A stretch of DNA of 64,000 bases from Arcobacter caeni. Lineage in GTDB: Bacteria; Campylobacterota; Campylobacteria; Campylobacterales; Arcobacteraceae. Location: NCBI RefSeq assembly GCF_003063245.1, contig NZ_MUXE01000002.1, forward strand, positions 62,001 through 126,000. Direction: 5' to 3'. The notes beneath the pieces are model-generated. The model saw nothing but the letters and a program-made list of their open reading frames with translations, ran no database searches and was not told the origin of the DNA. The position numbers and the translations under genes were made by a program. Of the stretch, positions 6,330 through 53,578 are shown piece after piece; position 1 is the stretch's first letter, and each line of letters opens with the position of its first letter.

Positions 6330-6341
6330 AATTTTTCCTAA

Positions 6342-8060: not shown

Positions 8061-8120
8061 AATGTTTTCCTTACCTTTTTTTAATGTAATTTCATACCTT
8101 ACTACCAATAAATAGTCTCT

Positions 8121-8135: not shown

Positions 8136-8154
8136 CTATTTATACAATTGTTCT

Positions 8155-8180
8155 AATCAAGAGAAAAACTTCTCTTGATT
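8155..8180. terminator. stem-loop at the end of the norCB operon
   Basis: Perfect 10-base arms 8155-8164 and 8171-8180 with a 6-base loop, starting 1 base after the stop of the 51-residue gene on the minus strand. In that direction no T-run follows, so it is a weak terminator or a 3'-end stabiliser. The T-run is on the plus-strand side, where no gene needs it. Confidence 0.4.
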
Positions 8181-8181
8181 T

Positions 8182-8337
8182 TTATTTTTGTTCGTCTTCT
8201 AGTCTTTTTTTCTCTTGTCTATAAATCCAGAACATTGGAAGTACAATAAAAGTATGAAGAAAAATAGTTAATGTTAATGGACCTTGGTTTAATATTGCAA
8301 AAAAACTAGGTACTAAATCTGTCATTGGTTCAAACAT
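8182..8337 (-). CDS. small single-helix membrane protein in the nor operon
   Basis: A 51-residue frame starting 9 bases after the norB stop with GGAG at the right distance; it fills the otherwise empty gap between norB and nirS. It begins MFEPMTDLVPSFFA, has one hydrophobic helix (about residues 10-38, containing LTIFLHTFIVLPMFWIY) and a very charged tail (RQEKKRLEDEQK). The spacing and ribosome site make it a real gene of the nor operon. A role as a small subunit or assembly factor of NO reductase is inferred. I do not recognise a named family. Confidence 0.7.
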   Translation of the reverse strand: MFEPMTDLVPSFFAILNQGPLTLTIFLHTFIVLPMFWIYRQEKKRLEDEQK

Positions 8338-8346
8338 GTTATCTCC

Positions 8347-9768: not shown

Positions 9769-10432
9769 GAATCGCTCCTGTTACACCATCTGTTGACATT
9801 CTTGCGAAGTTTCTTGGGAAACCATTTGTATCAATTGATGACATATGTTTTAAAAATGCTACAAGACCCATTGCTTCTTTTTCAGTAATACCAAGATTTG
9901 GCATCATTCTTTGATGTGTTGGGAATTGAGACGGATTTTGTAAAAATTTAGACATAGCTTCTTCTTTCGTAGTAGAATTAGTCATACCTAAATATGCTCC
10001 GTTTGGTCCCCATGCTGGATCTAACCAAGCTTTTGTTAAATCTGGAGCATAATATGCACCATTTCCAAGTAATGTATGACAATTCATACAGTTTTTCGCT
10101 TGACTTCCTAATTTACCTAAATGAAGAAGTTCCGCAGCTTCTTGTTCAGACCAATCATCTCTACCAAAGAATTTCTCTTTTTCACCAATAACTGGCACCT
10201 CATGACCTCTTCTTGTATCCATTTTATAATCAATATTATAATTGATTACTGTTGGACCTGGTACTCTTTTTGTAATACCGTTTTTAAGATCAGCGTCCGT
10301 TCCCATTTTAATTTGACCCATTGAATCGAATGTTAACCAAATTAATAGTATTGCAGCAAAACCAGTTACCCACGCAGCTGATTTTCTCCAAAAAGGAATA
10401 CTCGTCCATACTGAAACAACTTTTTTTGACAC
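9758..10432 (-). CDS. norC: nitric oxide reductase cytochrome c subunit
   Basis: 224 residues. One N-terminal membrane anchor (about 20-36) is followed by a periplasmic domain with a single heme site C115-x-x-C118-H119 (NCMNCHTLLG) and a likely Met ligand in QRMMPNLG. It passes electrons to NorB. At 224 residues it is longer than the ~150 of Pseudomonas NorC, with an insert before the heme site. A GGAGGAA-type site precedes it. Confidence 0.93.
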   Translation of the reverse strand: MSKKVVSVWTSIPFWRKSAAWVTGFAAILLIWLTFDSMGQIKMGTDADLKNGITKRVPGPTVINYNIDYKMDTRRGHEVPVIGEKEKFFGRDDWSEQEAAELLHLGKLGSQAKNCMNCHTLLGNGAYYAPDLTKAWLDPAWGPNGAYLGMTNSTTKEEAMSKFLQNPSQFPTHQRMMPNLGITEKEAMGLVAFLKHMSSIDTNGFPRNFARMSTDGVTGAIHGK

Positions 10433-10448
10433 TTGTTCCTCCTAAAAT

Positions 10449-10775
10449 TTATTGTTCATATCTTTGCTCAGACCTAATATTTAAGTAATAATAAAGATGT
10501 GGTAAAATTAAATAACACACCATAGTTACCATTAATGCTTTAATAGTAAAATCATTACTTTGAATTTTGTCTGCGACATAGTACATACAATATGTTTGCA
10601 AAGCCCAAAAAATATATGCAAAAGGCATGTATATTTTTTTTAATCTTTCCATTTTTACTAGCGTATAAATAGCTACGTAAAACAGTCCAAATAGTAAAAC
10701 AAAAGCTGAAGATAAAAATATAGGCAAGAAATCGTCAAGGGCAATTTCTGGTCTAATAATCATGATTGGTTCCAT
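10449..10775 (-). CDS. membrane protein of the nor operon, unknown function
   Basis: 108 residues with three predicted transmembrane helices (about 16-38, 47-66 and 78-98). It is the first gene of the nor transcription unit, 16 bases before norC, and is preceded by an FNR-like box. No metal-binding motif is obvious. Its position suggests help in NO reductase assembly or electron entry, but no function can be assigned. Confidence 0.75.
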   Translation of the reverse strand: MEPIMIIRPEIALDDFLPIFLSSAFVLLFGLFYVAIYTLVKMERLKKIYMPFAYIFWALQTYCMYYVADKIQSNDFTIKALMVTMVCYLILPHLYYYLNIRSEQRYEQ

Positions 10776-37801: not shown

Positions 37802-38584
37802 ATGAAAAAATATATATATTGTATGAAAGGAATAGTTTATAAAGAACTAATCCGATTTTTAAAACAAAAAAGTAGATTTTTTTCTGCACTTGTGCGACCA
37901 CTCTTATGGTTGTTTATTTTTTCAGTTGGGTTTAAATCAGCTTTAGGTTTAGCAATAATTCCACCTTATGAGACATATATTACTTATGAAACATATATTG
38001 TTCCAGGACTTGTGGGAATGGTTTTACTTTTTAATGGAATGCAAAGCTCACTAACTATGATATTTGACCGTGAAATGGGAAGTATGAAAATACTTTTAAC
38101 TTCATATATAAATAGAAATTATCTTCTATTTTGTAAAATGTTTGCAACGGCCATAGTATCAACTTTACAAGCTCTTACTTTTTTAATAATTGCAAAAATT
38201 TATGGAGTTGAACTTTCAATTAGTGGAATACTTTTAACAATACCAATTATTATGATTTCATCAATAATTTTAAATGCTTTTGCACTTTTTATATCATCTG
38301 TTATTAAACAGTTGGAAAATTTTGCAACTGTTATGAATTTTGTGATTTTTCCTATGTTTTTTTTAAGTTCAGCTCTTTATCCCTTATGGAAAATAAAAGA
38401 TTCATCAATTTTGATTTTTAATATTTCATCTTTTAATCCATTTACACATATTGTAGAATCAATTCGTTTCTGTCTTTATGGTAAATTTGACTTAGAATTG
38501 TTTTTTATTTTAGGATTTTTATTCGTTATCAGCCTAATAATGGCCTTTGTAGGTTTTAAATCTAAGAAAATAAGTCATAGCTAA
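37802..38584 (+). CDS. ABC transporter permease, PQQ alcohol dehydrogenase system (PedC-like)
   Basis: 260 residues, six transmembrane helices, ABC-2 type: FLKQKSRFFSALVRPLLWL at the start, GMQSSLTMIFDREMGSMK in the cytoplasmic loop, and FFLSSALYPLWKI. ABC-2 permeases usually export. It is the last gene before exaA; a GCTATA element of the exaA promoter overlaps its final codons. Confidence 0.88.
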   Translation: MKKYIYCMKGIVYKELIRFLKQKSRFFSALVRPLLWLFIFSVGFKSALGLAIIPPYETYITYETYIVPGLVGMVLLFNGMQSSLTMIFDREMGSMKILLTSYINRNYLLFCKMFATAIVSTLQALTFLIIAKIYGVELSISGILLTIPIIMISSIILNAFALFISSVIKQLENFATVMNFVIFPMFFLSSALYPLWKIKDSSILIFNISSFNPFTHIVESIRFCLYGKFDLELFFILGFLFVISLIMAFVGFKSKKISHS

Positions 38585-38611
38585 ACTTAGGCTATATTTG
38601 TTATGTATACT
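38580..38611 (+). promoter_or_regulatory. GCTATA-repeat promoter of the quinoprotein alcohol dehydrogenase gene
   Basis: GCTAAA at 38580 and GCTATA at 38591, 11 bp apart; -10 TATACT (38606-38611) starts 15 bases after the start of the second. The first element spans the permease stop codon. Leader about 44 bases. Confidence 0.75.
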
Positions 38612-38661: not shown

Positions 38662-40446
38662 ATGATTAAAAAAAAGCTACTAACTAGTGCCGCGGCCGTT
38701 ACACTTTGTGCATTAATTAGCGCTTCTGCGAATAGTAACACAACTAAAGTTACAGAACCATCATACAATCCAGTTACATATAATGAGATTTTAAATGATG
38801 AAAAAACAACAAATGATGTTTTGACTTATGGTATGGGACAAAGAGGACAAAGATTTTCACCTTTAGAACAAATCAATAAAAAAACTATTAAAGATTTAGT
38901 TCCTGTATGGAATTTCTCTTTTGGTGGTGAAAAGCAAAGAGGGCAAGAGTCTCAACCGATTATTAAAGATGGTGTTATGTATGTAACTGCATCTTACTCA
39001 AGAGTTTTTGCTATTGATATAGCAACGGGTGAAGAGTTATGGCAATATGATGCAAAGTTACCTGATGCGATTTTACCATGTTGTGATGTTATAAATAGAG
39101 GTGTTGCAATTTATGATAATCTAGTAATTTTTGGAACACTTGATGCTAAATTAGTGGCACTTGATAGAAAAACTGGGAATGTAGTTTGGAAACAAAAAAT
39201 TGCAGATTATAAAGATGGTTATTCAATAACTGCTGCTCCACTTATTGTAAAAGATAAAATTATTACAGGTGTTGCTGGTGGTGAGTTTGGAATTGTTGGA
39301 AAAGTAGAAGCTAGAGATCCTAAAACTGGTGAAGTAGTTTGGACAAGACCAACTGTTGAAGGACATATGGGTTACCTAAATGGTAAAGAAAATGGAATTA
39401 CTGGTGGTGAAGCTGGTAAAACATGGCCTGGAGATTTATGGAAAAATGGTGGAGCTGCAACATGGCTTGGTGGAACATATGATCCTGAAACAAATTTAAT
39501 TTTTATGGGTACTGGAAATCCTGCTCCTTGGAATTCACATTTAAGACCAGGAGATAATTTATACTCTTCTTCAAGATTAGCGTTAAATCCAGATACTGGA
39601 GAAATAGTTTGGCATTTTCAATCTACTCCACATGATGGTTGGGATTTTGATGGTGTAAATGAATTAATTTCATTTGATTATAAAGATAAAGATGGGAAAA
39701 CTGTAAAAGCAGCAGCTACTGCTGATAGAAATGGATTCTTCTATGTCCTAAATAGAGAAAATGGTAAATTCATTACTGCCAATCCATTTGTTTCTAATAT
39801 TACATGGGCAAAAGGTATTGATAAAAATGGTAGACCTCTTTATATAGATGAAGCAAGACCTGGAAACCCAGGAGAAGAAAGTAAAGGAACATCAGTATTT
39901 GCAGTACCTGCCTTCTTGGGTGCTAAAAACTGGATGCCAATGGCATATTCTCAAAAAACAAAAAATTTCTATGTTCCATCTAATGAGTGGGGAATGGATA
40001 TTTGGAATCAACCTATTTCTTATAAAAAAGGTGCAGCATATTTAGGTGCAGGATTCACTATTAAACCAGTTTTTGAAGACCATATTGGTTCTTTAAAAGC
40101 AATTGAGCCATTAACTGGAAAAGTAAAATGGGAATATAAAAATCCTGCACCATTATGGGGTGGAGTTTTAACAACAGCTGGTGGCATTGTAATGACAGGA
40201 ACTCCTGAAGGAAAATTATTAGCATTTGATGATGAAACAGGTGAAATTTTATATAAATTCCAACTTGGATCAGGAATTGTTGGTTCTCCTGTTACTTGGG
40301 AACAAGATGGTGAACAATATATTGCAATCGTTTCAGGTTGGGGTGGAGCGGTTCCTTTATGGGGTGGTGAAGTTGCAAAACAGATTAAAAACATCAACCA
40401 AGGTGGAACGGTTCATGTATTTAAATTACACAAAACTAAAAAATAA
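38662..40446 (+). CDS. exaA: PQQ-dependent (quinoprotein) alcohol dehydrogenase
   Basis: 594 residues: signal peptide (about 1-23), then an eight-bladed propeller with tryptophan-docking motifs ([30 protein letters not shown]). C140-C141 form the vicinal disulfide over PQQ. Catalytic D328 lies in [12 protein letters not shown]330, two residues on, is the position that in XoxF, ExaF and PedH binds a lanthanide and is Ala or Ser in calcium enzymes such as MxaF. It oxidises ethanol-type alcohols in the periplasm and passes electrons to PedF. No fused heme domain. pqqA follows after 24 bases. Confidence 0.92.
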
Positions 40447-40470: not shown

Positions 40471-40545
40471 ATGAAATGGGAAACACCGATGTTCGTTGAT
40501 AACAGATTTGGTTTTGAAGTGACAATGTATATTTGTCATGAATAA
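40471..40545 (+). CDS. pqqA: PQQ precursor peptide PqqA
   Basis: 24 residues, with an AAGGAGG ribosome site 8 bases ahead. The invariant Glu and Tyr that are joined to form PQQ are E16 and Y20 in FGFEVTMYICHE, flanked as in known PqqA peptides (compare FEVTMY). It lies between exaA and pqqB and is followed by a terminator hairpin, which would make pqqA more abundant than pqqB-E. Confidence 0.92.
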   Translation: MKWETPMFVDNRFGFEVTMYICHE

Positions 40546-40668: not shown

Positions 40669-41580
40669 ATGAGAATAGAAATATTAGGTTCAAGTGCAGG
40701 GGGTGGACTTCCTCAGTTTAATTGCAATTGCCATAACTGTAAAGGTTATAGAGAGGGAAAAAGTACAATTAAAAGAAGAACACAAAGCTCAATAACTATT
40801 AGTGAAGATGGACAAAATTGGGTTTTATTTAATACTTCACCTGATATTTTAGAACAAATACATAATTCGCCATTTTTACATCCTAAAGAAAGAAGAGAAA
40901 CAAAAATAAAAGCGATAGTTTTTATTGATGCTCAAATTGACCATACCACAGGACTTTTGATGTTAAGAGAAGGTTGTCCTCATCCTGTTTATTGCACAAA
41001 AGAGGTTCAAGAAGAACTTAATACTTCTTTCCCTTTATTTAAAATGTTAGAACATTGGGATGGTGGTGGAACTATTTATAATGAAATAATTTTAAATAAA
41101 CCTTTTGAAATTCCTGTTATGCCAAACCATGAATTTTATGCAATGCCTTTGATTTCAAACGCACCTCCATATTCAAAATATAGAGATAAACCAAGAGATG
41201 GAGATAATATCGGAGTTATTGTAGTAAATAAAGAAACAGGAAAAAGACTTTTTTATCTTCCAGGACTTGGAGTATTACAAAAACATATTATTGAAGAGAT
41301 GGCAAAAGCTGATGTTTTATTAGTTGATGGGACATTATGGAGCAATGATGAGATGATAAAAAATGGTTTTTCAACAAAACTTGGAACTGATATGGGACAT
41401 TTACCTTTAAGTGATAAAGGTGGCTTAATTGAGCTTTTAGACAAGTTAGTACATCCACGAAAAATATTAATACATATAAATAATACAAATCCTATCTTAG
41501 ATGAATCAAGTCCTGAATATAAAGAACTTATATCTCACGGTATTGAAATATCTTATGATGGTATGTGTATAGAAATCTAA
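40669..41580 (+). CDS. pqqB: PQQ biosynthesis protein PqqB
   Basis: 303 residues of the metallo-beta-lactamase fold: [18 protein letters not shown] at the N-terminus (the family's extra zinc site), [17 protein letters not shown] and LVDGTLW. PqqB is known as an iron-dependent, O2-using hydroxylase of the tyrosine part of the PQQ precursor. First of pqqBCDE. Confidence 0.95.
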
Positions 41581-41609
41581 AAAATCAATCTAAATTAAAA
41601 GGAGAAAAG

Positions 41610-42320
41610 ATGCAAGAGGCTTATAGTAAAGAAGAGTTTGAATCAAAACTAAGAGATATGGGAAGAATGTATCATATTCATCACCCTTTTCATATAAGAA
41701 TGTACGAAGGTACTTGTACAAAAGAAGAGATTCAAGGTTGGGTTGCAAATAGATTTTATTATCAATGTATGATTCCAATTAAAGATGCAGCTATTATGTC
41801 AAATTGTCCCAGTTTAGTTGATAGAAGAAAATGGATTGATAGAATCACAGACCATGATAGTGTTGGTGGTGGAATCGAAGCTTGGTTGGAATTAGGCGAA
41901 GCTGTTGGATTAAATAAAGAGGATTTAGTTTCCCATAAATTTTTATTACCATCTGTAAAATTTGCTGTTGATGCTTATGTAAATTTTGCAAGACAAAGAC
42001 CTTGGAAAGAAGCTGCAATGTCATCTTTAACAGAGATGTTTGCACCTCAAATCCATCAACAAAGACTTAGCACTTGGCCTGATAATTACCCTTGGATTGA
42101 ACAAAAAGGTTTAAGATATTTCCAAAAAAGATTAAGTGAAGCAAGAAGAGATGTGCAACATGGTTTAGCTATTACTCTTGAAGAGTTTAATACAAGAGAA
42201 TTACAAGAAAAAGCTTTCTCGATTTTACAGTTTAAATTAGATATTTTATGGACAATTTGCGATGCTTTATATTTAGCCTATGAGTTAAAAAGACCACCAT
42301 ATTTTAATTGCGAGAAATAA
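41610..42320 (+). CDS. pqqC: PQQ synthase PqqC
   Basis: 236 residues from the ATG at 41610 (AAAGGAG ahead). Highly conserved: [51 protein letters not shown] and LQFKLDILW, covering the active-site Tyr, His, Arg and Lys residues known from Klebsiella PqqC. It performs the final ring closure and O2-dependent eight-electron oxidation. It is the canonical copy; a divergent second copy lies at 49639. Confidence 0.95.
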
Positions 42321-42321
42321 A

Positions 42322-42585
42322 ATGGAAAATAAAAAAATAAAACTAAATCCAAATTTCCAGTTTCAATGGGAAGAAAAACAAAACTGTTATGTATTACTTT
42401 ATCCAGAAGGTATGGTTCAATTAAACCAAAGTGCGGGAGAAATTTTAAATCTTTGTGACGGTGAAAAAGATGTTGAAGAGATAAATAAACTTTTATGTAA
42501 AAAATTTGAAATGCAAGATTTAACAGCTGATATAAATGCTTTTTTAGAAGAAGCACAAAATAGAAATTGGATACATTATGAATAA
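42322..42585 (+). CDS. pqqD: PqqA-binding chaperone PqqD
   Basis: 87 residues, RRE fold. QFQWEEKQNCYVLLYPEGMV and LNQSAGEILNLCDG are the PqqD hallmark segments. It presents PqqA to PqqE. Two bases after pqqC and overlapping pqqE by 8 bases. It is the only pqqD in the window, so it would have to serve both PqqE copies. Confidence 0.93.
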   Translation: MENKKIKLNPNFQFQWEEKQNCYVLLYPEGMVQLNQSAGEILNLCDGEKDVEEINKLLCKKFEMQDLTADINAFLEEAQNRNWIHYE

Positions 42586-43678
42586 TGAAATAAAACCACC
42601 GTTATGGATTCTTTTAGAATTAACACACAAATGCCCTTTGGAGTGTGCATATTGTTATAACCAACTTGATTTTGCAAATACAAAAGATGTTATGAGCAAA
42701 GAAGATTGGTTTAGAGTGATGGAGCAAGCACGAGATATGGGAGCTGTTCAATTAGGAATTAGTGGAGGAGAACCTTTATTAAACAAAGATGTAGTTGAAA
42801 TTGTAAGAAAAGCAAATGATTTAAAATTTTATACAAATCTTATAACTTCAGGAGTTGGTGCTCCAAAAGGTGTTGTTGCAAAACTAAAAGAGGCTGGTCT
42901 TAAAACAGTGCAATTAGGTATTCAATCACATGATAAAAACACTATGACTTTGATTACAAATAATAAAAGTGCCTATGATGAAAAAATTGCCTTTGCAAAA
43001 GAGATAAAAGAAGCAGGACTTCAATTAATCGTAAATACTTGTATAACTAGACAAAATATCCATCAAGTTGGAGAAATTATCGAGTTTGCTGAAAGTTTAG
43101 GGGCAAATTATTTAGAGATTGCAAATATCCAGTATTATGGTTGGGCACTAAAAAATGTAAATGCCTTACTTCCATCACAAGAGCAAATCACAAAAGCTAG
43201 AGAAGTTACAAAATATTACAGAGAACAAAGAAAAGATATGAAAGTATTTTTTGTAGTTCCTGATTATTTTGCAACAAGACCAAAAGCCTGTATGAATGGA
43301 TGGGGAACAACATTTTTAACTATAAACCCTGATGGTGTAGCACTTCCTTGTAATACTGCAAATACTCTACCACTTACATTTCCAAATGTAAAAGAGTTTT
43401 CAATAAAAGAAATATGGAATGAATCAAAAGCATTTAATTATTTCAGAGGTGATTCCTGGATGCAAGAACCGTGTAGAACTTGTGATGAAAAAGAGAAAGA
43501 TTTTGGAGGATGCCGATGCCAAGCATTTGCCCTAACAGGCGATATGAATGCAACTGATCCTGTGTGTATAAAATCACCAAATCATGGTGTAATAAATAAA
43601 AAAATAGAAGATAGCATGATTTTTTCAGAAGATAAAATTATTCATAGAAATAGATTAAACTCTTTAACTTTTATGTAA
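42578..43678 (+). CDS. pqqE: radical SAM PqqA Glu-Tyr cyclase PqqE
   Basis: 366 residues. C19-x3-C23-x2-C26 (KCPLECAYCY) for the SAM cluster; SPASM auxiliary-cluster cysteines in PKACMNGWG, LPCNTANT, EPCRTCDEKEKDFGGCRC and DPVC. It links the Glu gamma carbon and Tyr ring of PqqA. Very similar to the second copy at 46507. Confidence 0.95.
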   Translation: MNNEIKPPLWILLELTHKCPLECAYCYNQLDFANTKDVMSKEDWFRVMEQARDMGAVQLGISGGEPLLNKDVVEIVRKANDLKFYTNLITSGVGAPKGVVAKLKEAGLKTVQLGIQSHDKNTMTLITNNKSAYDEKIAFAKEIKEAGLQLIVNTCITRQNIHQVGEIIEFAESLGANYLEIANIQYYGWALKNVNALLPSQEQITKAREVTKYYREQRKDMKVFFVVPDYFATRPKACMNGWGTTFLTINPDGVALPCNTANTLPLTFPNVKEFSIKEIWNESKAFNYFRGDSWMQEPCRTCDEKEKDFGGCRCQAFALTGDMNATDPVCIKSPNHGVINKKIEDSMIFSEDKIIHRNRLNSLTFM

Positions 43679-43696: not shown

Positions 43697-44611
43697 CTAA
43701 ACTAAAAGTCTTTTTTCTTCTTTCCTATCTTTTATATCAGTAATATCTTGAGTAATTTCCATTACTCCTTTATAGGTTTTATTTTCATCCCTAATTGCAA
43801 AAAATCTAATATGTATTAATTTATCCTTGAAATTTATCCAAAATTCAGCACTATCTTTTTTCCCATTTTTAAAAGATTCTAATATTTGTAAAACTTGATC
43901 AACACTTTTTGGAGGATGACAAAATTTTACTTCTCTTCCAATTATTCCAGGACTTCTTGGAAAAATTCTTTCATCCCCATTATTATAAAAAACAACTCTA
44001 TCATTTTCATCTACATAAGTTATATCAAGAGGTAAATGTTTGAATATTAGATTTACTTGATTTGGTGTTAAAAAATCTTCATCGTAAGAAATAGCATCTA
44101 TTTCAATTTCAAGTTTTTTAGTTTTTGCGAGATTTTTTAAATTCTTATCTTCAATATCAATCATAAAACCAATTTCTTTATCTCCTATACTTATTTCCTG
44201 CCATTCTGTATTATTTAAAGAATTAATGGCATTTGGAAACAAGGTAGTTTCTTCAAGTAAAATCATATGATTCATATTATTAATTAAATCTTCAATCATA
44301 AAGGTTATATCGGAAAACTTATTTTCTTCGATTTTTCTTTTTATTTGTTTTAATTCATCTCTTATTTGATCATGAAAAGTCCACATGTACTGAGTGGTTG
44401 TTTCCCAACCATATCTTTCAATATATGGGAAAAGTTGATTTTCTTTTCTTGTATAATGTTTATCAACTTCATTTAAATGATTGAAAATATTATAAAATGT
44501 TTCAAAATCATTTTCAATATTAATATATTTAATCTGATTTAATAGCCCTTTTATTAATATATTTTCATTTAAATAAATTTCTATAGGATGATTTTTATCA
44601 AGATTTTTCAT
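43697..44611 (-). CDS. hemerythrin-HHE / PAS sensor protein (DUF438-like)
   Basis: 304 residues. A hemerythrin-like helical bundle covers about 1-150, with iron-ligand-type residues in HYTRKENQLFPYIERYG, FHDQIRDELK and HMILLEETTLFP. A PAS domain is at about 190-295 (LPLDITYVDENDRVVFYNNG, FCHPPKSVDQVLQIL). No kinase or DNA-binding part. Such proteins may sense O2 or NO through a di-iron centre or heme. It is the last gene of the six-gene pqqE2/U32 operon, 11 bases after the upstream gene. Confidence 0.8.
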   Translation of the reverse strand: MKNLDKNHPIEIYLNENILIKGLLNQIKYINIENDFETFYNIFNHLNEVDKHYTRKENQLFPYIERYGWETTTQYMWTFHDQIRDELKQIKRKIEENKFSDITFMIEDLINNMNHMILLEETTLFPNAINSLNNTEWQEISIGDKEIGFMIDIEDKNLKNLAKTKKLEIEIDAISYDEDFLTPNQVNLIFKHLPLDITYVDENDRVVFYNNGDERIFPRSPGIIGREVKFCHPPKSVDQVLQILESFKNGKKDSAEFWINFKDKLIHIRFFAIRDENKTYKGVMEITQDITDIKDRKEEKRLLV

Positions 44612-44622
44612 TAGTTTTATCC

Positions 44623-45588
44623 TTAACTAATTTTCATTTTTTCTTCTTTAGTACTATTTATTAAAGAGCCTAATCTTTTTCTTTTCTGATTTTTCCATCT
44701 ATTTCCTAATTCTTGCATCTCTTCCTCATAAATAGCAAGATTTGTATTAATATCCTTTTTTAATGAATCAATTACTTTTCTGTAAAATTTAACTATATCT
44801 TGTATTAAATCAACGGGTTTTTCTCTACCAGATATTTTAAAAACTTCTGTATTTATTTTCATAAAATAAGGTAATTGTCTCAGCATTAAGTTAGCATCAT
44901 GTTTTAATTTTGCTTTTTTATTTTCTTTACCATCACTTTTTAAATCCCAAGCAGCTTGACAAACTCTATAGCATTCTTTACTTCCTCTGTTTGCGCTTGC
45001 TTTTTCATTTTTTGCTTCTTCTTGTTCACTTACTTCTCTATAGCTTAAATAAGAGCTCATAATACAATTTCCTGGACAGAGCTTTCCTGTTTGTGTTGTT
45101 TCATAAAAAAATGTTTCAAGTCCAATATTTGAGACTTTTTTTACTTCTTTAAAATCATTATCATCCCATCTATAAGGAAGAACAATTAAATCACTACCTA
45201 ATTCTTCATAAAATTTTACATCCATTGCGTTTGAAATTCCACTACCAACACTTACATGAATTTTACTATCAGGAAAATTACTTTTTAAATATTTCAAAAC
45301 TCCAATATCAGAAGCAATATATCCATGTGCTCCCATATGATGGTAAGTACTTATTTTCTTCAAGTAAGCTTTCATTTCTAAAGGTGATGGAAAAGTGTTT
45401 ATAACAATTCTAACTTCAGCATTATTTTTATTTGCATAATCAATCATAAGCTGAATGTCTTTATCAGAAGCTTCTGAATCATTTGTTCTTCTGCTCCATC
45501 CTGTTGGACCAACATAAATTGCATCAGCTCCTGCATCTATCGCTGCATAAGCCATATCTAAATTACCAGCTGGTGCTAAGATTTCCAT
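44623..45588 (-). CDS. U32-family (UbiU-like) protein, copy A
   Basis: 321 residues. Typical U32 start MEILAPAGNLDMAYAAIDAG with DAIYVGPTGWSRR. Four cysteines (LCPGNCIMSS and KECYRVCQ) can hold a 4Fe-4S cluster, as in UbiU, UbiV and RlhA. Those relatives hydroxylate without O2, or hydroxylate rRNA; 'peptidase U32' is the older name. It is a paralogue of the 47631 gene. Not seen as part of any standard pqq operon I know. Fourteen bases after the aminotransferase gene. Confidence 0.8.
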   Translation of the reverse strand: MEILAPAGNLDMAYAAIDAGADAIYVGPTGWSRRTNDSEASDKDIQLMIDYANKNNAEVRIVINTFPSPLEMKAYLKKISTYHHMGAHGYIASDIGVLKYLKSNFPDSKIHVSVGSGISNAMDVKFYEELGSDLIVLPYRWDDNDFKEVKKVSNIGLETFFYETTQTGKLCPGNCIMSSYLSYREVSEQEEAKNEKASANRGSKECYRVCQAAWDLKSDGKENKKAKLKHDANLMLRQLPYFMKINTEVFKISGREKPVDLIQDIVKFYRKVIDSLKKDINTNLAIYEEEMQELGNRWKNQKRKRLGSLINSTKEEKMKIS

Positions 45589-45602
45589 AATTTTCTCCTT
45601 TT

Positions 45603-46520
45603 TTATAATATGTATGTTAAATATTTATTATATTTTAAAGTATTTCCATAAATTAAATTAAAATATGCCTTTTGTATTTTCTTTGTGATTTTTCCTGTTT
45701 GTGAATTATTTATAACTCTATTGTCAATTTCATAAAAAGGTGTAATCTCAGCAGCTGTTCCTGTAGAAAAAGCTTCGTCACAAATGTATACTTCATCTCT
45801 TGTAATATTTCTTCTTCGAACTTTAATACCCATATTTTTAGCTAATTTTATAACTGTATCTTGTGTAATTGATTCTAGTGAATTATCATTTGGTGGAGTA
45901 ATTAAAGTTTTATTTCTTACCATAAAAAAACATTCTCCACTAGCTTCTGCAATAAATCCATTGTCATCTAATAATAAAGCTACATCATATCCACAATCTA
46001 AAGCTTCTTTTTTTGACATTTGAGAGTTTAAATAATTTGATACAGCTTTTGCTTTTGACATGGTTGAATTAATAGAATTTCTTCTAAAAGATGATATTTT
46101 TGCTTTTATACCAGTTTTTAATCCATCTTTATCGATAAGACTACTCCATTCCCAAGCGATAATAGAAAATCTTACTTTGCATTCACTTGGTAATATTCCT
46201 AAATTTCCATCTGCATAATAAATAATAGGTCTTATATAAATATTATTTTTAAATTCATTTTTTTTAATAAGAGTTACAATTGCATCTTTAATTTCCTTAT
46301 ATGAATAAGGACTATCAATCATTACTATTTTTGCAGAATCTAATAATCTTTTTATATGTTTTTTAAGCCTAAATATTGCTAAACCATTTTTTGTTTTATA
46401 TGCTCTGATACCTTCAAAAACACCATTTCCATAATGTAATGTATGAGTTGTTATATGAATATTTGCATCTTCCCATTTTAAAAGTTTGCCATCCATCCAT
46501 ATATATTTAGCAGTTTGCAT
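45603..46520 (-). CDS. class IV aminotransferase (branched-chain-type)
   Basis: 305 residues from the ATG at 46520 (a TTG at 46532 is possible). It resembles IlvE: HTLHYGNGVFEGIRAYKT, the PLP lysine in SKAKAVSNYLNS, AEASGECFFMV and DEAFSTGTAAEITP. It is placed between pqqE2 and U32 copy A with a 14-base overlap, so it is probably not the housekeeping IlvE. What it transaminates in a quinone-cofactor setting is unknown; PqqE-type chemistry does not require it. Confidence 0.82.
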   Translation of the reverse strand: MQTAKYIWMDGKLLKWEDANIHITTHTLHYGNGVFEGIRAYKTKNGLAIFRLKKHIKRLLDSAKIVMIDSPYSYKEIKDAIVTLIKKNEFKNNIYIRPIIYYADGNLGILPSECKVRFSIIAWEWSSLIDKDGLKTGIKAKISSFRRNSINSTMSKAKAVSNYLNSQMSKKEALDCGYDVALLLDDNGFIAEASGECFFMVRNKTLITPPNDNSLESITQDTVIKLAKNMGIKVRRRNITRDEVYICDEAFSTGTAAEITPFYEIDNRVINNSQTGKITKKIQKAYFNLIYGNTLKYNKYLTYIL

Positions 46521-47634
46521 GATTTTTGCCAATAAAATTAATAGAATTATTTCTATTTCTATAAATTAATCCATCATTTGATGTTTCTAGTGCTCTATTT
46601 ATAGTGTCTGTTATTATATTATGATGTTGTGATTTTTCACATACAGGATCAGTTGCATTCATATCATTTGTTAGTGCAAAGGCTTGGCATCTGCATCCTC
46701 CAAAATCTTTTTCTTTTTCATTACAAGTTCTACAAGGCTCGCTCATCCAAGAATCACCTCTGAAATAATTAAAAGAATTTGATCTATTCCAAATCTCTTC
46801 TAAAGAATAATCTTTTACATTTGGAAATTTAAGAGGAAGAGTATTTGCCATATTACATGGAAGAGCATCTCCTTCTGGGTTTATAGTTAAAAAAGTAGTT
46901 CCCCAACCATTCATACAAGCTTTTGGTCTTACTTCATAATAATCTGGTACAACAAAATATACTTTCATTTTATTGTTTTTATTTTCTCTGTAAGTGTGGG
47001 TTATTTTTCTTGCTTTTTCAATTTGTTCTTTTGAGGGTAATAATTTATCTATATTTTCTAATGCCCAACCATAATATTGAACATTTGCTAATTCTAAATA
47101 ATTTGCCCCTACATCATTTGCATATTCAATTATTTTATCAACATGGTCAATATTTAGCTTATGAATGGTTGAGTTAATAATTAGTTGAATACCTTCTTTT
47201 TTAACTTCTTTTATAAAATTTTGTTTTTGCTCGTAGGCTGTTTTATTATTAGTAAGTAATGTAATTATATCTTTATCATGAGATTGAATACCAATTTGAA
47301 CTGTTTTTAAACCAGCTTCTTTTAATTTTTGAACAATTCCAATAGGAGCACTTACTCCTGATGTGATTAAATTTGTATAAAATCCTAAATCATTGGCTTT
47401 TTTAACCAATTCAGGTAAATCCTTATTTAATAAAGGTTCTCCACCTGAAAAACCAATCTGAACAGCTCCCATTTCTCTTGCTTGTTCCATTACTCTAAAC
47501 CAATCTTCTTTTTGCATTTTGTCATCAATCTTTGCAAAATCAAGTTGATTGTAACAATAAGGACATTCTAAAGGACATTTATGAGTTAATTCTAACAATA
47601 TCCATAATGGTGGTTTGGTTTTAATTTCATTCAT
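46507..47634 (-). CDS. pqqE: second PqqE-type radical SAM enzyme
   Basis: 375 residues, clearly paralogous to the pqqE at 42578, with C20-x3-C24-x2-C27 (KCPLECPYCY) and all auxiliary-cluster cysteines kept (KACMNGWG, LPCNMANT, EPCRTCNEKEKDFGGCRC, DPVC). The C-terminal tail is longer and different, ending in NHANC. All catalytic parts are intact, so it should still crosslink PqqA or a similar peptide. It overlaps the upstream U32 gene by 4 bases. No second pqqA or pqqD is nearby. Confidence 0.9.
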   Translation of the reverse strand: MNEIKTKPPLWILLELTHKCPLECPYCYNQLDFAKIDDKMQKEDWFRVMEQAREMGAVQIGFSGGEPLLNKDLPELVKKANDLGFYTNLITSGVSAPIGIVQKLKEAGLKTVQIGIQSHDKDIITLLTNNKTAYEQKQNFIKEVKKEGIQLIINSTIHKLNIDHVDKIIEYANDVGANYLELANVQYYGWALENIDKLLPSKEQIEKARKITHTYRENKNNKMKVYFVVPDYYEVRPKACMNGWGTTFLTINPEGDALPCNMANTLPLKFPNVKDYSLEEIWNRSNSFNYFRGDSWMSEPCRTCNEKEKDFGGCRCQAFALTNDMNATDPVCEKSQHHNIITDTINRALETSNDGLIYRNRNNSINFIGKNHANC

Positions 47635-48608
47635 AGCTTTTTTACACCTTCCATATTTCGATAAGATTTGGCTTTATTCATTAAAACGGCTACTCTTTTT
47701 TGTTTTTGTTTATTCCATTCATATCTTAAGTCTTCTAATTCTTTTGTATAAGAACTTAAATCTTTTATAATTCCATTTTCAATTTGTGTAATTACTTTTT
47801 TATAAAACTTAATAACTTTACAAATAGTTTCAATAGGTCTTTCTCTTCCTGAGATTTTAAAAACTTTTACTCCGCAGTTTATAAAATCAACTAATTGTTC
47901 TTGAATTAAATTTGTATCTTGTTTTAAAATCGATTTAGATTCTTTTGCATTATCGTTTATTTCCCAAGGTACTTGACAAATTCTATAACACTCTTTACTC
48001 CCTCTATTTGCACTTCCATATTCATTTGTTTTTTCTTCTTCTTTAAACCAATCTCTATACTGAAAAAATGAACTCATAATGCAATTTCCTGGGCAAATTT
48101 TGCCTGTTTTAATTGTATTATATAAAAAAGCTTCAAGTGTGATATTTGAGATTTCTTTTATTTTCTCAAATTCATCAGTGTTCCATCTAAAAGGTAAAAC
48201 AATTACATCAGCACCCATTTCTTCAAAAAATTTTACATCTAAAGCATTAGATACTCCTGCTCCAATACTTACATGAATTTGTGTATTTGGAAATTTATCT
48301 CTTAAAAGTTTTACAATACCTACATCTGTTACTATAAAACCAGATGCACCCATATTATGAAATTTTGTAACTTTTTTTATAAAAAGAGCCATTTCAAAAG
48401 GAGTAGGATAGGTATTAACTACAATTTTTATTTTTTTATTGAATTTATTTGCATATTCAATCATTTGTTCTATTTCATCATCGTTTACTTCTGATTCCAT
48501 AGGTCTTCTACTCCAACCTTTAGGACCGGCATATACAGCATCTGCTCCAGCATCAATTGCAGCTATTGCCATTTCTAAACTTCCTGCTGGAGCTAGAATT
48601 TCAGTCAT
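47631..48608 (-). CDS. U32-family (UbiU-like) protein, copy B
   Basis: 325 residues, paralogue of the 44623 protein: TEILAPAGSLEMAIAAIDAG, YAGPKGWSRRPME, then KICPGNCIMSS and KECYRICQVPW with the same four cysteines. It overlaps the UbiV-like gene by 8 bases and pqqE2 by 4, so stoichiometric production with both is likely. An O2-independent hydroxylase role is inferred from UbiU. Confidence 0.8.
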   Translation of the reverse strand: MTEILAPAGSLEMAIAAIDAGADAVYAGPKGWSRRPMESEVNDDEIEQMIEYANKFNKKIKIVVNTYPTPFEMALFIKKVTKFHNMGASGFIVTDVGIVKLLRDKFPNTQIHVSIGAGVSNALDVKFFEEMGADVIVLPFRWNTDEFEKIKEISNITLEAFLYNTIKTGKICPGNCIMSSFFQYRDWFKEEEKTNEYGSANRGSKECYRICQVPWEINDNAKESKSILKQDTNLIQEQLVDFINCGVKVFKISGRERPIETICKVIKFYKKVITQIENGIIKDLSSYTKELEDLRYEWNKQKQKRVAVLMNKAKSYRNMEGVKKL

Positions 48609-49518
48609 TACTATCTCTTTTATAATAATCTTGACCTGTTAATCCAAAATAATATCCATTGCATAAACCTTCATGAGCTAAAGCAGATAAAATTTCAATT
48701 TTATCTGTGTAATAAATATCCTCTTTATTTATAGCCTTTTGAATAATCTCTTTATAAATAGCACCTGTTGTTTCTATAAACTCACTACTTTCTCCATGAC
48801 TTTGAATAAGAAAATTCTTGACACCTTTTTCTAATAAATCTACAATATGCTCAGCCATACATAAATCTTTACCACTAATCGTCATTCTTCCTGTATCTTT
48901 CATCGACCATTCACCTTGTTGCCTAGTTAACCAATGGTCTTTACTACATGCAAAACCACAATTACTTTCATCATTACCATTTTGCTCCATAATAAAACAA
49001 GTTTCTGATGCAACAAGTGGAATTTTTCCATGAACAACAAAAGTAGTTTCAATTGGAGTTTCATCTTTTATGAAGATTGATTCTTCAATACTTAACTCAG
49101 GACTTGGTTGTACTCTTGAAACACCATATTTTTGAAGTACTTTTATTGTCTCTATTGTATAGATATTTCCAAATACACCAAAATGAATAGGAATAGTATT
49201 GTTTAAATCTCTTAATAAAAGAAGAACTCCTAGATTATGTACTTCAAAAGCATCAACTTTTAGTTCAATAGCTCTTTTAATAAGCTCTTTCATCCAATCC
49301 ATATCTTTATTTTCAGGTACTGCATAAAGCCTTAGATAACATTTTTTATTTAATTGTTTTAAATAACTAATAGTTTTTTCTAAATCTTCACTATTAGAAC
49401 AAAAATTATTTGGATATAAAGGACATGAAACATCACCCAAATATAAGGCATCATAGGAAGAAATATCTGTTCTTATTAATTGCTCATAATTGCTAATTGT
49501 TGTTGATAGTTCGATCAT
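48601..49518 (-). CDS. U32-family protein with UbiV-type cysteine spacing
   Basis: 305 residues from the ATG at 49518 (GGAG ahead; upstream in-frame starts lack a site). It differs from copies A and B: GKIPLVASETCF begins a C-x12-C-x3-C set (ETCF...NCGFAC), with earlier cysteines near residues 32-40. This is the spacing I recall for the 4Fe-4S site of UbiV. LCNGYYFG near the C-terminus is also UbiV-like. UbiV works as a heterodimer with UbiU in O2-independent quinone ring hydroxylation. First gene of the six-gene operon. Confidence 0.8.
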   Translation of the reverse strand: MIELSTTISNYEQLIRTDISSYDALYLGDVSCPLYPNNFCSNSEDLEKTISYLKQLNKKCYLRLYAVPENKDMDWMKELIKRAIELKVDAFEVHNLGVLLLLRDLNNTIPIHFGVFGNIYTIETIKVLQKYGVSRVQPSPELSIEESIFIKDETPIETTFVVHGKIPLVASETCFIMEQNGNDESNCGFACSKDHWLTRQQGEWSMKDTGRMTISGKDLCMAEHIVDLLEKGVKNFLIQSHGESSEFIETTGAIYKEIIQKAINKEDIYYTDKIEILSALAHEGLCNGYYFGLTGQDYYKRDSND

Positions 49519-49545
49519 TTTAAACTCCAATAATAAATTTATCAA

Positions 49546-49577
49546 ACTTTACTGAAATTTTATAGCGTAAATATAGC
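49546..49577 (-). promoter_or_regulatory. GCTATA-repeat promoter of the U32/pqqE2 operon
   Basis: Minus-strand GCTATA at 49577-49572 and 49566-49561, 11 bp apart; -10-like TAAAGT (49551-49546) starts 15 bases after the start of the nearer one. The -10 is weak (4 of 6). Confidence 0.65.
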
Positions 49578-49607
49578 TATATTTGAGCTATAAAAATCTA
49601 GTAAAAT
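49576..49607 (+). promoter_or_regulatory. GCTATA-repeat promoter of the second pqqC gene
   Basis: GCTATA at 49576 and 49587, 11 bp apart; -10 TAAAAT (49602-49607) starts 15 bases after the start of the second. Its first element overlaps the outermost element of the opposite promoter by 2 bases (TATAGCTATA). Confidence 0.7.
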
Positions 49608-49638
49608 TCTAAAATATGATTAGAAAAGAGGATAGATT

Positions 49639-50373
49639 ATGAATAATGGTTATTCTAAAAAAGAGTTTGAAATGAAATTGCGAGAGATGGAATATATGTA
49701 TCACCTTTATCATCCTTTTCAACAAAAAATGAATAGTGGAAATTTTACAAAACGCCAAATGCAAGGTTGGGTTGCAAATAGATTTTATTATCAATATACG
49801 ATACCTACAAAAGATTTAGCAATAATATCTAATAATCCTCCCATAGAACATAGAAGATTATGGATTCAAAGAGTAAAGACTCATATTAAACCAAATGGTG
49901 CATTAGATGCGTGGCTTGATTTAGGCGTTGCAGTAGGACTTAGTAAAGATGATTTATTATCTTTTAAATATGTTCTTCCAGGAGTAAAATTTGCAATTGA
50001 TGCTTATTTAAATTATACAAAAAGATCAGGATGGGAAGAATCAGTAGCTTCTTCTCTTAGTGAAATGTTTGCTATTAAACTTCATAAGTTAAGATTAGAT
50101 ACTTGGCCATTATTATATCCATGGATAGATGAAAATGCTTTGCTTTATTTTAAAAAAAGATTAAATGATACACCAAAAGACAATATCCATGCTTTAGATA
50201 TTGTATTAAATCATTTTAATACTTATGAATTACAGAAAGAAGTATTCAAAATCTTAAAATTTAAATTAGATGTTTTATGGACAATGCTAGATTATATGTA
50301 TTTAGCATATGAGTTAAATAAAGAGCCTTATTTTAACATTAAAAACTCAAATACTAAATATCTTATAGAATAA
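49639..50373 (+). CDS. second, divergent PqqC-type protein
   Basis: 244 residues. Kept from PqqC: YHLYHP (Tyr-His pair), [11 protein letters not shown], a His at the DHD position (now RVKTHIKPNG), LHKLRLDTWP (His and Arg), YFKKRL and LKFKLDVLW (Lys). Changed: the third residue after the first His is Tyr instead of His, the two acidic residues around the middle His are lost, and APQIHQ is AIKLHK. It may therefore catalyse a related reaction or use another oxidant. It is transcribed away from the U32 operon from a shared regulatory gap. Confidence 0.85.
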   Translation: MNNGYSKKEFEMKLREMEYMYHLYHPFQQKMNSGNFTKRQMQGWVANRFYYQYTIPTKDLAIISNNPPIEHRRLWIQRVKTHIKPNGALDAWLDLGVAVGLSKDDLLSFKYVLPGVKFAIDAYLNYTKRSGWEESVASSLSEMFAIKLHKLRLDTWPLLYPWIDENALLYFKKRLNDTPKDNIHALDIVLNHFNTYELQKEVFKILKFKLDVLWTMLDYMYLAYELNKEPYFNIKNSNTKYLIE

Positions 50374-50380
50374 AATAGAA

Positions 50381-50821
50381 TTATTTTCTAGTGGTATATT
50401 CTAAAATTTTTACTATTTGAGAAGTATTTGTTGCCCATGCTAAAGATGCTGCATCTACTTCTTTTAGTGGGTGAATTAATTCTTCAGAATGAAGAGTAAT
50501 ATATGGCTTGTTTAGTGCTGTGCAAATTCCTGCATCGAATGCTACATTCCATTGTTTATATTTTTCTCCAAATCTAATAATTACTATATCTGCTTTTTGA
50601 ATTAGAGTTTTTGTTCTTAGTACATTAATTTTAGCACTTTTATGGTCTTTCCAAAATGCTTTATTCTCTTCTCCTAAAATATTTCCAGCATTATCAGAAG
50701 CTTCATGATCATTTATTGCAGATAAAAAAGTAATTGGTAACATTAGCTCATTACATCCATTAATTATTTCATCTCTCCATTCAGAGTGAATTTCTCCCGA
50801 AAGATATATTGTGTAATTCAT
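50381..50821 (-). CDS. YtoQ-family protein
   Basis: 146 residues beginning MNYTIYLSGEIHSEWRDEI, with FLSAINDHEASDNAG and DIVIIRFGEKYKQWNVAFDAG, the YtoQ pattern (nucleoside 2-deoxyribosyltransferase-like fold). Function unknown. It follows the response regulator gene on the same strand by 47 bases and may share its transcript. Confidence 0.82.
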   Translation of the reverse strand: MNYTIYLSGEIHSEWRDEIINGCNELMLPITFLSAINDHEASDNAGNILGEENKAFWKDHKSAKINVLRTKTLIQKADIVIIRFGEKYKQWNVAFDAGICTALNKPYITLHSEELIHPLKEVDAASLAWATNTSQIVKILEYTTRK

Positions 50822-50868: not shown

Positions 50869-51528
50869 CTATTCAGGTCTTTCTATCATATATCCGCTTC
50901 CTCTAATATTTTTTATAAAATCCTCTTTTAATACAGTTTTTACTCTATTAACTTCAGCTCTAATAGTTGCATTATCAATATAATCATCATTCCAAACATA
51001 CTCTCTAAACATATCATATTGCACAACTAAACTTCTATTTAGAGCTAAAAGTTCTATTATTTGAAGTTGTCTTTTTGGCAAAATATGAGGTTCATTATTA
51101 AATAATAGAGTCATATTTTCAGAATCGAAACTATAATGTTTTGATAATCTTTTATGCCTTTGAGGAACTATTCTTGTTTTTAAAATTTTATTAATTCTTA
51201 AAGTTAATTCTTTTAAATGAAATGGCTTTTTCAAATAATCAAAACAACCTAAATCAAAAGCCCTTGAAATATCTTCAATATCAATAAGTGCTGAAATATA
51301 AATAGTTGGAATCATTCTTTTTTGTTCATGCATTTTTTCTAAAATAGTAAAACCATCAATATCTGGAAGATTTATATCTAAAATCAATAAATCAAATTTT
51401 TCTTTTTCTAAAATATCCAACGATTCACTACCTGTTTTTACACTTTTTATTGCATGTCCTGTTGAAATGATATATTCTGTTATCATTTCATTTAGCATAA
51501 CATCGTCTTCTACTAATAATATTTTCAT
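50869..51528 (-). CDS. OmpR/PhoB-type response regulator, candidate PQQ-regulon controller
   Basis: 219 residues: receiver domain with E7-D8-D9 and phosphorylation site D51 (DLLILDINLPDIDG), KKPFHLKELTLRINK, then a winged helix with LLALNRSLVVQYDMFREYVW and a DNA-recognition end VLKEDFIKNIRGSGYMI. It overlaps the FIST kinase gene by 4 bases. PhoB-class proteins bind 11-bp direct repeats. This gene lies in the middle of nine promoters with 11-bp GCTATA repeats, so it is the best candidate to bind them; inference. Confidence 0.9.
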   Translation of the reverse strand: MKILLVEDDVMLNEMITEYIISTGHAIKSVKTGSESLDILEKEKFDLLILDINLPDIDGFTILEKMHEQKRMIPTIYISALIDIEDISRAFDLGCFDYLKKPFHLKELTLRINKILKTRIVPQRHKRLSKHYSFDSENMTLLFNNEPHILPKRQLQIIELLALNRSLVVQYDMFREYVWNDDYIDNATIRAEVNRVKTVLKEDFIKNIRGSGYMIERPE

Positions 51529-53432
51529 AATATTTCCTTAAATGTATATGTGAATGAAGCCCAATTTTTACCTGATTCTAGTTTTATTCCAACATTTTCT
51601 TCGCTACAAATTCTTTTTACTAAATTTAGTCCAAGACCAAAGCCATCTTTTGAAACTTCTTCTCTATAATATTCTTCAAATATTTTTTGAGGATCTAGAA
51701 TTTGAGCAGATTTACTTTCTACAATAAAATCACAATTGTTATTTAGTAATTCTAATTTTATATTTATAATTTCATTTGGAAGAGTATATTTTATTGCATT
51801 TGTTAAATTATTATCTATAATTCTTTGAAGTTTTGTTTCATTGAAATTTAATATAATTTTATGTTTAGAGCTTTTAAATTTAAATTCAGATTTTACTTTT
51901 AGTGCAGAAGATGAAAAAAAATCTATTCTAGCTCTTATAAAATCAACTAAATCTATTTTATGTGATGCTTGGTTTACTTGATCTTTTTTTACTAAATAAC
52001 TCAAATCATCATAAATACTAAAAATATTTTTCATAGCAACTTCAATATTAGATAGATATTTATTTTTCCCAAATTCCATTTCAAACATTTCAATATTTCC
52101 CATAATTACAGATAAGGGAGTATTTGTTTCATGAACAGCATGTTTTAAAAACTGTTTTTGAGAAGTTATTAAATTTTGAGCATAAATATTACCTTCTTCA
52201 AGCTCTTTGGATTGAATATTATAATCAGTAGAGGATTGTTGTATTAAGTGTGTTAATGCTTGTAAACTTTTTGCATGATCACTTAATTTTGTATTTTCAT
52301 TTTCATGTATTGCGTCAGGTTGTGTAGTTGTTTGTTCTTGTTCACTTAAGGCTAATATAGTTAGTGTTTGATTTAAAAGTTCATTTTTCCCTTTATTATG
52401 ATAAAACTCCCCATAGGTAAAAAAACCAGCAGTTGACGCAATTTTTGAAAAAGGTTTTATTTCTATATTTATTAAATCAGGCATATATCTTCGTCTTGCC
52501 ATACATGCATATATAAAAAAAGTTTCTGTATCTTTTATATAACCTTTTGTAAATAAGGACTTCAAAGGATTATTCATAATTAATTCAACATTTCCAAATC
52601 CTAGTTTTACAATATCTCCTTTGTGAAGATTTCCTGCAAAACTTAAACTTCCATCTTCATGTTTTGCAATAACTGCTCTTGCAATTGGAATTTTATTTTT
52701 TTGTACAATTAATGGAAATTCAATTCCGGTTGCAGGAAGTGAACTAGCTACATAAGTACCTAAGTATTTTTCGTAAAAATCTAAAGGAGTAAGTCCTGAA
52801 ATTTTATAAACTCTATTTCCCTCAACCTCTTCAATTTCATGCTCAATTCCAATAGGTGACCAATTAAAATTATAGGCATTAGTAACTTTTAAAGATGTTG
52901 AGTTCAAAGAAACTCCAACTGCTCCTTGTGTTAATATTTTATTTTGACAAGAAATAAATGTTTGCATAAAATCAGCATTATCACCGGCCATTCCACCACA
53001 TACAATTATTTTATCATTGATTGAGCTAATTCCATTTAAAAATTCTTCACCATTTGTTTTTTCTCCATCTGTAAATGTAATTAATAGTTTGGTTTCTTCA
53101 CTACAAAGTGCTGAGGCTAATTTTACACCATTTGAAAAAGAGTCAATTTCATCTACTGAAACGATTTTTAATGTGGTTTTTTCAAATATAGAAATTGCAA
53201 CCACTGTATTTAATGTAGTAATTTGCGAATCATTTATTTCCCCATCTGTCGATGAACCTATACAAATAGCTTGTGGTAACTCTTTTGCGATTACATTTAA
53301 GATATATTCTAAAATATCTTTTTTTTCTCCACAAAATATTTGGATTAATAAATTTTTCTCATTCTTAAAAATAGAGAAATCTATTATTCTTTCGATTGGT
53401 TTTTGATTTAGTGTGTAATTAAATGTTTTCAT
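51525..53432 (-). CDS. soluble FIST-domain histidine kinase
   Basis: 635 residues, no transmembrane helix. FIST N domain about 25-215 (ICIGSSTDGEIND, LLITFTDGEKTNGEEFL, IIVCGGMAGDNADF) and FIST C about 215-345 (ARAVIAKHEDGSLSFAGNLH). Phosphoacceptor box HAVHETNTPLSV (H434), N-box NNLTNAIKYTLP and GFGLGLNLVKR. It detects a cytoplasmic ligand of unknown identity and pairs with the regulator downstream. FIST-type sensor kinases are known in Pseudomonas alcohol-oxidation control. Confidence 0.9.
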   Translation of the reverse strand: MKTFNYTLNQKPIERIIDFSIFKNEKNLLIQIFCGEKKDILEYILNVIAKELPQAICIGSSTDGEINDSQITTLNTVVAISIFEKTTLKIVSVDEIDSFSNGVKLASALCSEETKLLITFTDGEKTNGEEFLNGISSINDKIIVCGGMAGDNADFMQTFISCQNKILTQGAVGVSLNSTSLKVTNAYNFNWSPIGIEHEIEEVEGNRVYKISGLTPLDFYEKYLGTYVASSLPATGIEFPLIVQKNKIPIARAVIAKHEDGSLSFAGNLHKGDIVKLGFGNVELIMNNPLKSLFTKGYIKDTETFFIYACMARRRYMPDLINIEIKPFSKIASTAGFFTYGEFYHNKGKNELLNQTLTILALSEQEQTTTQPDAIHENENTKLSDHAKSLQALTHLIQQSSTDYNIQSKELEEGNIYAQNLITSQKQFLKHAVHETNTPLSVIMGNIEMFEMEFGKNKYLSNIEVAMKNIFSIYDDLSYLVKKDQVNQASHKIDLVDFIRARIDFFSSSALKVKSEFKFKSSKHKIILNFNETKLQRIIDNNLTNAIKYTLPNEIINIKLELLNNNCDFIVESKSAQILDPQKIFEEYYREEVSKDGFGLGLNLVKRICSEENVGIKLESGKNWASFTYTFKEIL

Positions 53433-53524: not shown

Positions 53525-53578
53525 GCTATACTCATGCTATACTATAGCTTTATTCACGCTATACTTCTCGTGTAGAAT
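53525..53578 (+). promoter_or_regulatory. four-repeat GCTATA promoter of the aldehyde dehydrogenase gene
   Basis: GCTATA at 53525 and 53536, GCTTTA at 53547, GCTATA at 53558: exact 11-bp period. -10 TAGAAT (53573-53578) starts 15 bases after the start of the last. Leader about 67 bases. Confidence 0.78.

Follow-up and report, generated by a model that had tools for sequence, protein, structure and literature searches.

The 64,000-nucleotide stretch of Arcobacter caeni DNA analyzed here (assembly GCF_003063245.1, contig NZ_MUXE01000002.1, positions 62,001 to 126,000 of the forward strand; hereafter the window) contains an eight-gene module (window positions 43697–50821) in which a second pqqE (pqqE2) and a second pqqC (pqqC2) are combined with three genes for U32 proteins akin to UbiU and UbiV. 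The link between this module and pyrroloquinoline quinone (PQQ) is firm. The best explanation for the module, unproven and held with barely better than even confidence, is that it makes PQQ without O2. We know of no organism shown to do so. O2 is regarded as a requirement for PQQ synthesis (PMC11102522); PqqB is reported to be an iron-dependent hydroxylase (PMC11002830), and the eight-electron oxidation carried out by PqqC uses O2 (PMC12423496). The PqqB and PqqC steps are held to need O2, yet denitrifiers and anoxic methanol oxidizers use PQQ enzymes, and the anoxic supply of PQQ has been named as an unsolved point in recent papers (PMC11102522, PMC12423496). The locus offers a concrete eight-gene set for this puzzle, with relatives lacking the module as natural controls and one genome whose only PqqE is that of the module (G008, see below), which makes the question of O2-free PQQ directly testable. 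If the explanation is true, the substrates of U32 hydroxylases, so far ubiquinone and RNA, would come to include a peptide-derived cofactor.

Linkage of the module to PQQ

The module is placed between the canonical pqqE and a response regulator, inside a PQQ alcohol-oxidation locus that spans 38.6–55.1 kb of the window and includes an alcohol dehydrogenase and an ExaC-like aldehyde dehydrogenase. Six of its genes form a minus-strand operon in the order U32V (48601–49518, UbiV-like, Pfam U32 115.7 bits), U32B (47631–48608, UbiU-like by U32 profile, cysteine alignment and tree), pqqE2 (46507–47634, an intact second PqqE of the radical SAM/SPASM type), a class IV aminotransferase (45603–46532, a second IlvE-like copy, NF005146 410.5 bits, cut-off 279), U32A (44623–45588, UbiU-like by U32 profile and tree, a 52% paralogue of U32B) and a hemerythrin-PAS protein (43697–44611, PF01814 and PF13596). 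Divergent from them lies pqqC2 (49639–50373, plus strand, TIGR02111 258.8 bits, cut-off 240), followed by ytoQ (50381–50821, minus strand, nucleoside deoxyribosyltransferase-like, TIGR03646 211.7 bits). All genes that the initial annotation had listed for 43697–50373 were recovered at their coordinates with nearly every detail right, and ytoQ, just beyond that interval, is also part of the module. The operon had been described as six overlapping genes, which holds for the first three junctions (U32V/U32B 8 nt, U32B/PqqE2 4 nt, PqqE2/aminotransferase at most 26 nt), while the last two are gaps of 14 and 11 nt. The start of U32V is most likely the ATG at 49518 rather than the TTG at 49545, and the true start of the aminotransferase is probably an internal ATG. 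The genome's own IlvE, 55% identical to the aminotransferase of the module, is encoded elsewhere.

PqqE2 scores 480.8 bits against TIGR02109 (cut-off 381.35), which places it in the PqqE family, retains 10 of 10 conserved cysteines of the radical SAM and SPASM clusters, and has a stem length of 0.23 in the tree. In the 99% complete genome G008, PqqE2 is the single PqqE, alongside PqqA, PqqB, PqqC and PqqD; the canonical pqqE was lost there, so that pqqD is directly followed by the response regulator (locus L035, 16440–16780). PqqE2 must therefore serve the PQQ pathway of G008, whose alcohol dehydrogenase is 83% identical to that of the window. No second PqqA was found in 38.5–51 kb, the peptide at 40471 (pqqA, 40471–40545, plus strand; MKWETPMFVDNRFGFEVTMYICHE) being the only PqqA-like one with a ribosome-binding site in these 12.5 kb. 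Given the sole PqqE of G008 and the single PqqA, the simplest view is that PqqE2 takes the ordinary PqqA as its substrate and contributes to the usual pathway.

The distribution of the genes was followed in 31 genomes of the genus. Nine carry pqqE and three carry the U32 set, all three being pqq-positive, and the set is absent from all 22 genomes without pqqE. Each of the three carriers has the module within its PQQ locus, and two layouts occur: in G008 (locus L035) and G015 (loci L036 and L229, the module being spread over two contigs) it is found as a whole, including ytoQ and pqqC2, between alcohol dehydrogenase-pqqA and pqqB, a position and orientation unlike those in the window. The gene ytoQ adjoins pqqC2 in all three and in no other pqq locus examined, and the other pqq-positive Campylobacteria examined have canonical pqqBCDE only. 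Purifying selection acts on each of the eight genes of the module, with ratios of nonsynonymous to synonymous substitutions (dN/dS) of about 0.09–0.27 between the window and G008. In the comparison of the window with L035, the dS of module genes was 0.67–0.88 and that of the neighboring pqqB, pqqC and regulator 0.40–0.49; a different history and recombination are proposed as alternatives for the higher module values.

The initial annotation had put the module under the same promoters as the alcohol dehydrogenase, and a putative operator, TAGC-N9-GCTA, is indeed common to both. It occurs six times in the window vs. 0.49 expected (none of 100 shuffles reached six), out of 20 copies in the whole genome. 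In each genome with the module, an overlapping double site lies between U32V and pqqC2 (49563–49590 in the window, sites at 49563 and 49574). Copies also precede the alcohol dehydrogenase, in the window (38578–38594) as well as at six further loci. Others stand before the aldehyde dehydrogenase/kinase pair, both in the window (53545–53561, where the site separates the aldehyde dehydrogenase from a FIST-domain histidine kinase) and in two more genomes, and before pqqB in G008 and G015. Through these shared sites the module is wired into the PQQ alcohol regulon. That the neighboring response regulator binds them is a guess. The motif is kept across several genera of the family; a further copy at 34055 lies ahead of a PQQ-associated beta-propeller gene (34125), and one at 10659, within a gene belonging to the denitrification region, may be due to chance.

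Kinship of the U32 proteins and of PqqC2

The three U32 proteins match Pfam PF01136 at 102–116 bits. In a tree of 39 U32 proteins, to be read with caution as UbiV and UbiU are on long branches, U32V grouped with Escherichia coli UbiV and V-type proteins (support 99/98), and a second group joined U32A and U32B to UbiU and the U-type proteins (97/93). Neither TrhP nor RlhA fell within these groupings, by which RNA-modifying types of this kind are ruled out; the phylogenetic comparison with UbiU, UbiV and RlhA suggested at the outset thus placed the proteins of the module on the UbiU/UbiV side. All four [4Fe-4S] cysteines of UbiV (C39, C180, C193, C197) have aligned counterparts in U32V of the three genomes, so that the C-x12-C-x3-C motif noticed initially is present as part of the full UbiV ligand motif CXnCX12CX3C (PMC6747719). 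In structure models, U32V and U32B form a barrel (mean predicted local distance difference test score, pLDDT, 71.5 and 70.4), the best solved match being the U32 protein 5d88; their cysteine-rich segments are at pLDDT < 50.

Compared with UbiU-UbiV, the O2-independent hydroxylases of ubiquinone (PMC6747719), the module proteins share the same U32 branches, a V-type gene adjoining U-type genes and the identical V-type iron-sulfur ligand motif. They differ in having two U partners, another U cysteine spacing and no UbiT in the locus, and they stay far under the NCBIfam equivalog cut-offs (the two UbiU-like proteins at 113.9–120.3 vs. 440 bits for UbiU, U32V at 72.5 vs. 275 bits for UbiV). Judged from such comparisons, the U32 proteins of the module are kin of UbiU and UbiV, not members proper. 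The organisms that carry the module use menaquinone.

The branch leading to PqqC2 is long, at about 1.07 changes per column. The flanks of H84 (DHD to HI) and H154 (APQIHQ to IKLHK/LKIHK), as well as the HPYHI stretch, are altered in all three species. The description as a changed PqqC thus stands for the flanks and the rate of change, not for the catalytic residues, all of those checked being unchanged. This divergence fits a shift in chemistry, without proving one. A dead or active-site-changed PqqC2 is ruled out by the retained catalytic residues and purifying selection. Both PqqE2 and PqqC2 are Campylobacteria-lineage paralogues of the canonical enzymes; relative to canonical pqqABCDE, the module has no extra PqqB and has U32 genes in its place.

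A possible O2-independent pathway and its alternatives

We infer the hydroxylation of a PQQ precursor, the pairing of subunits, an O2-free final oxidation and the roles of the aminotransferase and the sensor as follows. The module would be an add-on to the PQQ pathway for times when nitrogen oxides replace O2 in alcohol oxidation. PqqE2 would crosslink the Glu and Tyr residues of ordinary PqqA, with proteolysis following, and U32V would pair in turn with U32A and U32B into iron-sulfur hydroxylases of the UbiU-UbiV type that add two quinone oxygens to the Tyr ring without O2, otherwise the O2-dependent job of PqqB. Neither quinone oxygen of PQQ, at C4 or at C5, is inherited from the peptide, because the oxygen of Tyr does not survive at the position where the Glu nitrogen becomes attached; the pathway must accordingly hydroxylate two separate carbons, a need that could fit one V protein with two UbiU-type partners. 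PqqC2 would then close the ring and complete the oxidation, perhaps handing electrons to another acceptor, which an O2-free PqqC2 would need because the oxidation by PqqC uses O2. A speculative role for the aminotransferase is regeneration of the oxygen donor. The relative TrhP uses prephenate, according to the name of its profile family, and if prephenate were the donor here too, the aminotransferase could recycle the remaining keto acid. The hemerythrin-PAS protein may sense O2 or nitric oxide. In its fullest form, a first complete O2-independent PQQ pathway with U32V+U32A and U32V+U32B heterodimers hydroxylating two carbons in place of PqqB and with PqqC2 as an O2-free cyclase/dehydrogenase, the proposal is tentative, and we consider it somewhat more likely to be wrong than right.

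Several observations weigh against O2-free synthesis. The cysteine spacing of U32A and U32B is CX3CX30CX3C vs. CX6CX16CX38C in UbiU, and of the UbiU ligands C169, C176, C193 and C232, only C176 and C232 align; the four cysteines ascribed to each of these proteins are indeed common to both, with U32B having a fifth. In PqqC2, H24, R50, Y53, Q54, R80, H84, Y128, H154, R157, Y175, R179 and K214 (numbered after Klebsiella pneumoniae PqqC), among them residues that contact substrate or O2, are all kept, so every canonical catalytic residue checked is in place and nothing there signals independence of O2. Genes of the nirS family are present in all three module genomes, which speaks for the proposal, but also in two of the six pqq-positive congeners without the module. 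Moreover, as the three genomes share a single module ancestry, the linkage to pqq amounts to one event plus one rearrangement. Outside the genus, pqqE and pqqC are each absent (0/10) from the Methylomirabilis-type genomes with the nearest U32 set, and among 95 Methylomirabilota, with V-type genes in 28 and pqqE in 28, both occur in four vs. 8.3 expected. The U32 triads of Ammonifex and of a Bacillota adjoin benzoate-CoA-ligase-like genes. The expected co-occurrence of U32 genes with pqqE/pqqC hence held within the genus, where all three sets are inside the PQQ locus, and failed outside it, where the closest sets are not tied to pqqE.

The retained residues of PqqC2 are also what would be expected if the module were a microaerobic backup, with PqqE2 and PqqC2 as low-O2 variants, the last oxidation still needing O2, and the U32 proteins merely assisting, for instance in a PqqB-like hydroxylation at trace O2 or in repair. 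The nearby hemerythrin domain agrees with this, and Arcobacter-type bacteria are microaerophiles. Such a backup leaves the recruitment of a V subunit and two hydroxylase-type U32 partners unexplained, and the long branch of PqqC2 with its altered H84 and H154 flanks exceeds what a simple affinity variant would call for; we consider it unlikely, but more probable than the two alternatives below. The first of these, that the module supplies another dehydrogenase with a modified form of PQQ or with some other quinone derived from a peptide, would suit the strong divergence of PqqC2 and the extra enzymes without explanation (aminotransferase and YtoQ). The initial annotation had raised a PQQ variant as its alternative, which appears less likely given the single PqqA and the use of PqqE2 with canonical PqqB, PqqC and PqqD in G008. 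No second PqqA was seen in the locus, G008 with PqqE2 alone retains the same alcohol dehydrogenase, and the operator is common to the module and that dehydrogenase, all of which makes a product of this kind improbable.

It is just as improbable, in our estimate, that the U32 proteins serve a product other than PQQ, be it a respiratory quinone, an aromatic compound or a modified RNA, and that the genes are merely co-located and co-regulated with alcohol oxidation. Homologous sets without pqq, some of them beside aromatic-acid CoA ligases, speak for it. Against it, each of the three genomes has pqqE2 embedded in the U32 operon and pqqC2 reading away from it, the U32 set is missing from the genus genomes without pqqE, and the RNA-modifying U32 types fall outside in the tree. 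O2-free synthesis of PQQ remains our preferred explanation of the module, which is a new variant assembled from known parts.

Related gene sets and other features of the window

Relatives were taken from a collection scan with generic U32 motifs (matches listed), to which Methylomirabilota and one further phylum were added. Among the matches listed, sets elsewhere consist of one V-type gene with two or three of the U type, the nearest being the Methylomirabilis-type sister group (V 46–47%, U 37–41% identical to those of the window), and plasmid relatives are only distant (at most 33% identical); further PQQ-linked U32 sets may exist beyond these matches. As in the module, the Methylomirabilis sets have V and U genes in a row and are accompanied by an aminotransferase and a PAS regulator, but a phosphoenolpyruvate (PEP)-synthase-like gene stands there instead of pqqE/pqqC. 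The conserved Methylomirabilis cluster, seen in the M. oxyfera-type locus L164 (2296–12590) and also in L165–L168 and L170, holds a PAS-LuxR regulator, a HisC-like aminotransferase, U32V, two U-type U32 proteins, an NMT1/SsuA-like protein that appears to be without a signal peptide, a third U-type U32 and the PEP-synthase-like protein. Methylomirabilis was considered as a second PQQ case and dropped, since its genomes have neither pqqE nor pqqC; Methylomirabilis oxyfera is reported to use a PQQ enzyme though it is without PQQ synthesis genes (PMC6094997). The U32 clade is thus not a PQQ enzyme by descent, and recruitment must account for the Arcobacter-type set. Triads of Ammonifex, Thermoanaerobaculia and Methylomirabilota likewise have V and U genes in a row, some beside CoA ligases. 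In Ammonifex and a Bacillota metagenome-assembled genome (L041 2183–6896 and L042 270–4832), U-V-U triads come directly after the benzoate-CoA-ligase-like gene, in L041 also with a branched-chain-type ABC transporter nearby, and a possible role is the hydroxylation of rings without O2 when aromatic acids are degraded. In one Methylomirabilota genome (G562, contig C175; L177 and L210), a triad whose V gene has one TGA read through lies about 17 kb from pqqBCDE on the same contig.

In the literature searched, no link of U32 proteins to PQQ synthesis was found, and the sole proposal for anoxic PQQ synthesis concerns another gene set, the pqqAED-puuD-serC-pyrD cluster of Hyphomicrobium denitrificans (PMC12423496). 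That cluster resembles the module in belonging to a denitrifier, in carrying a second pqqE besides canonical pqqABCDE, next to an aminotransferase gene, and in its proposed purpose. Neither U32 proteins nor a second pqqC are mentioned for it, whereas the module is without a second pqqA or pqqD. PuuD-like, SerC and PyrD-like genes are absent from the module, whose aminotransferase is of the IlvE type, and with the single PqqA this sets it apart from the Hyphomicrobium type. An aminotransferase recurs, IlvE-type in the module, HisC-type at the Methylomirabilis set and SerC in the Hyphomicrobium cluster (PMC12423496).

Around the module, the locus comprises the PQQ-dependent alcohol dehydrogenase (38662–40446, plus strand, TIGR03075 807.9 bits), canonical pqqB, pqqC, pqqD and pqqE (40669–43678, plus strand, by profile matches), and the response regulator with the FIST-domain histidine kinase (50869–53432, minus strand), which are kept beside pqq in the family. 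Upstream of the alcohol dehydrogenase are PQQ-linked beta-propeller and ABC genes (TIGR03866, TIGR03863, TIGR03864) and a PedF-like cytochrome c. The Rfam scan of the window returned no match. At 1659–10775, the window also carries a denitrification cluster with cytochrome d1-domain proteins and NirJ-like and NorB-like genes.

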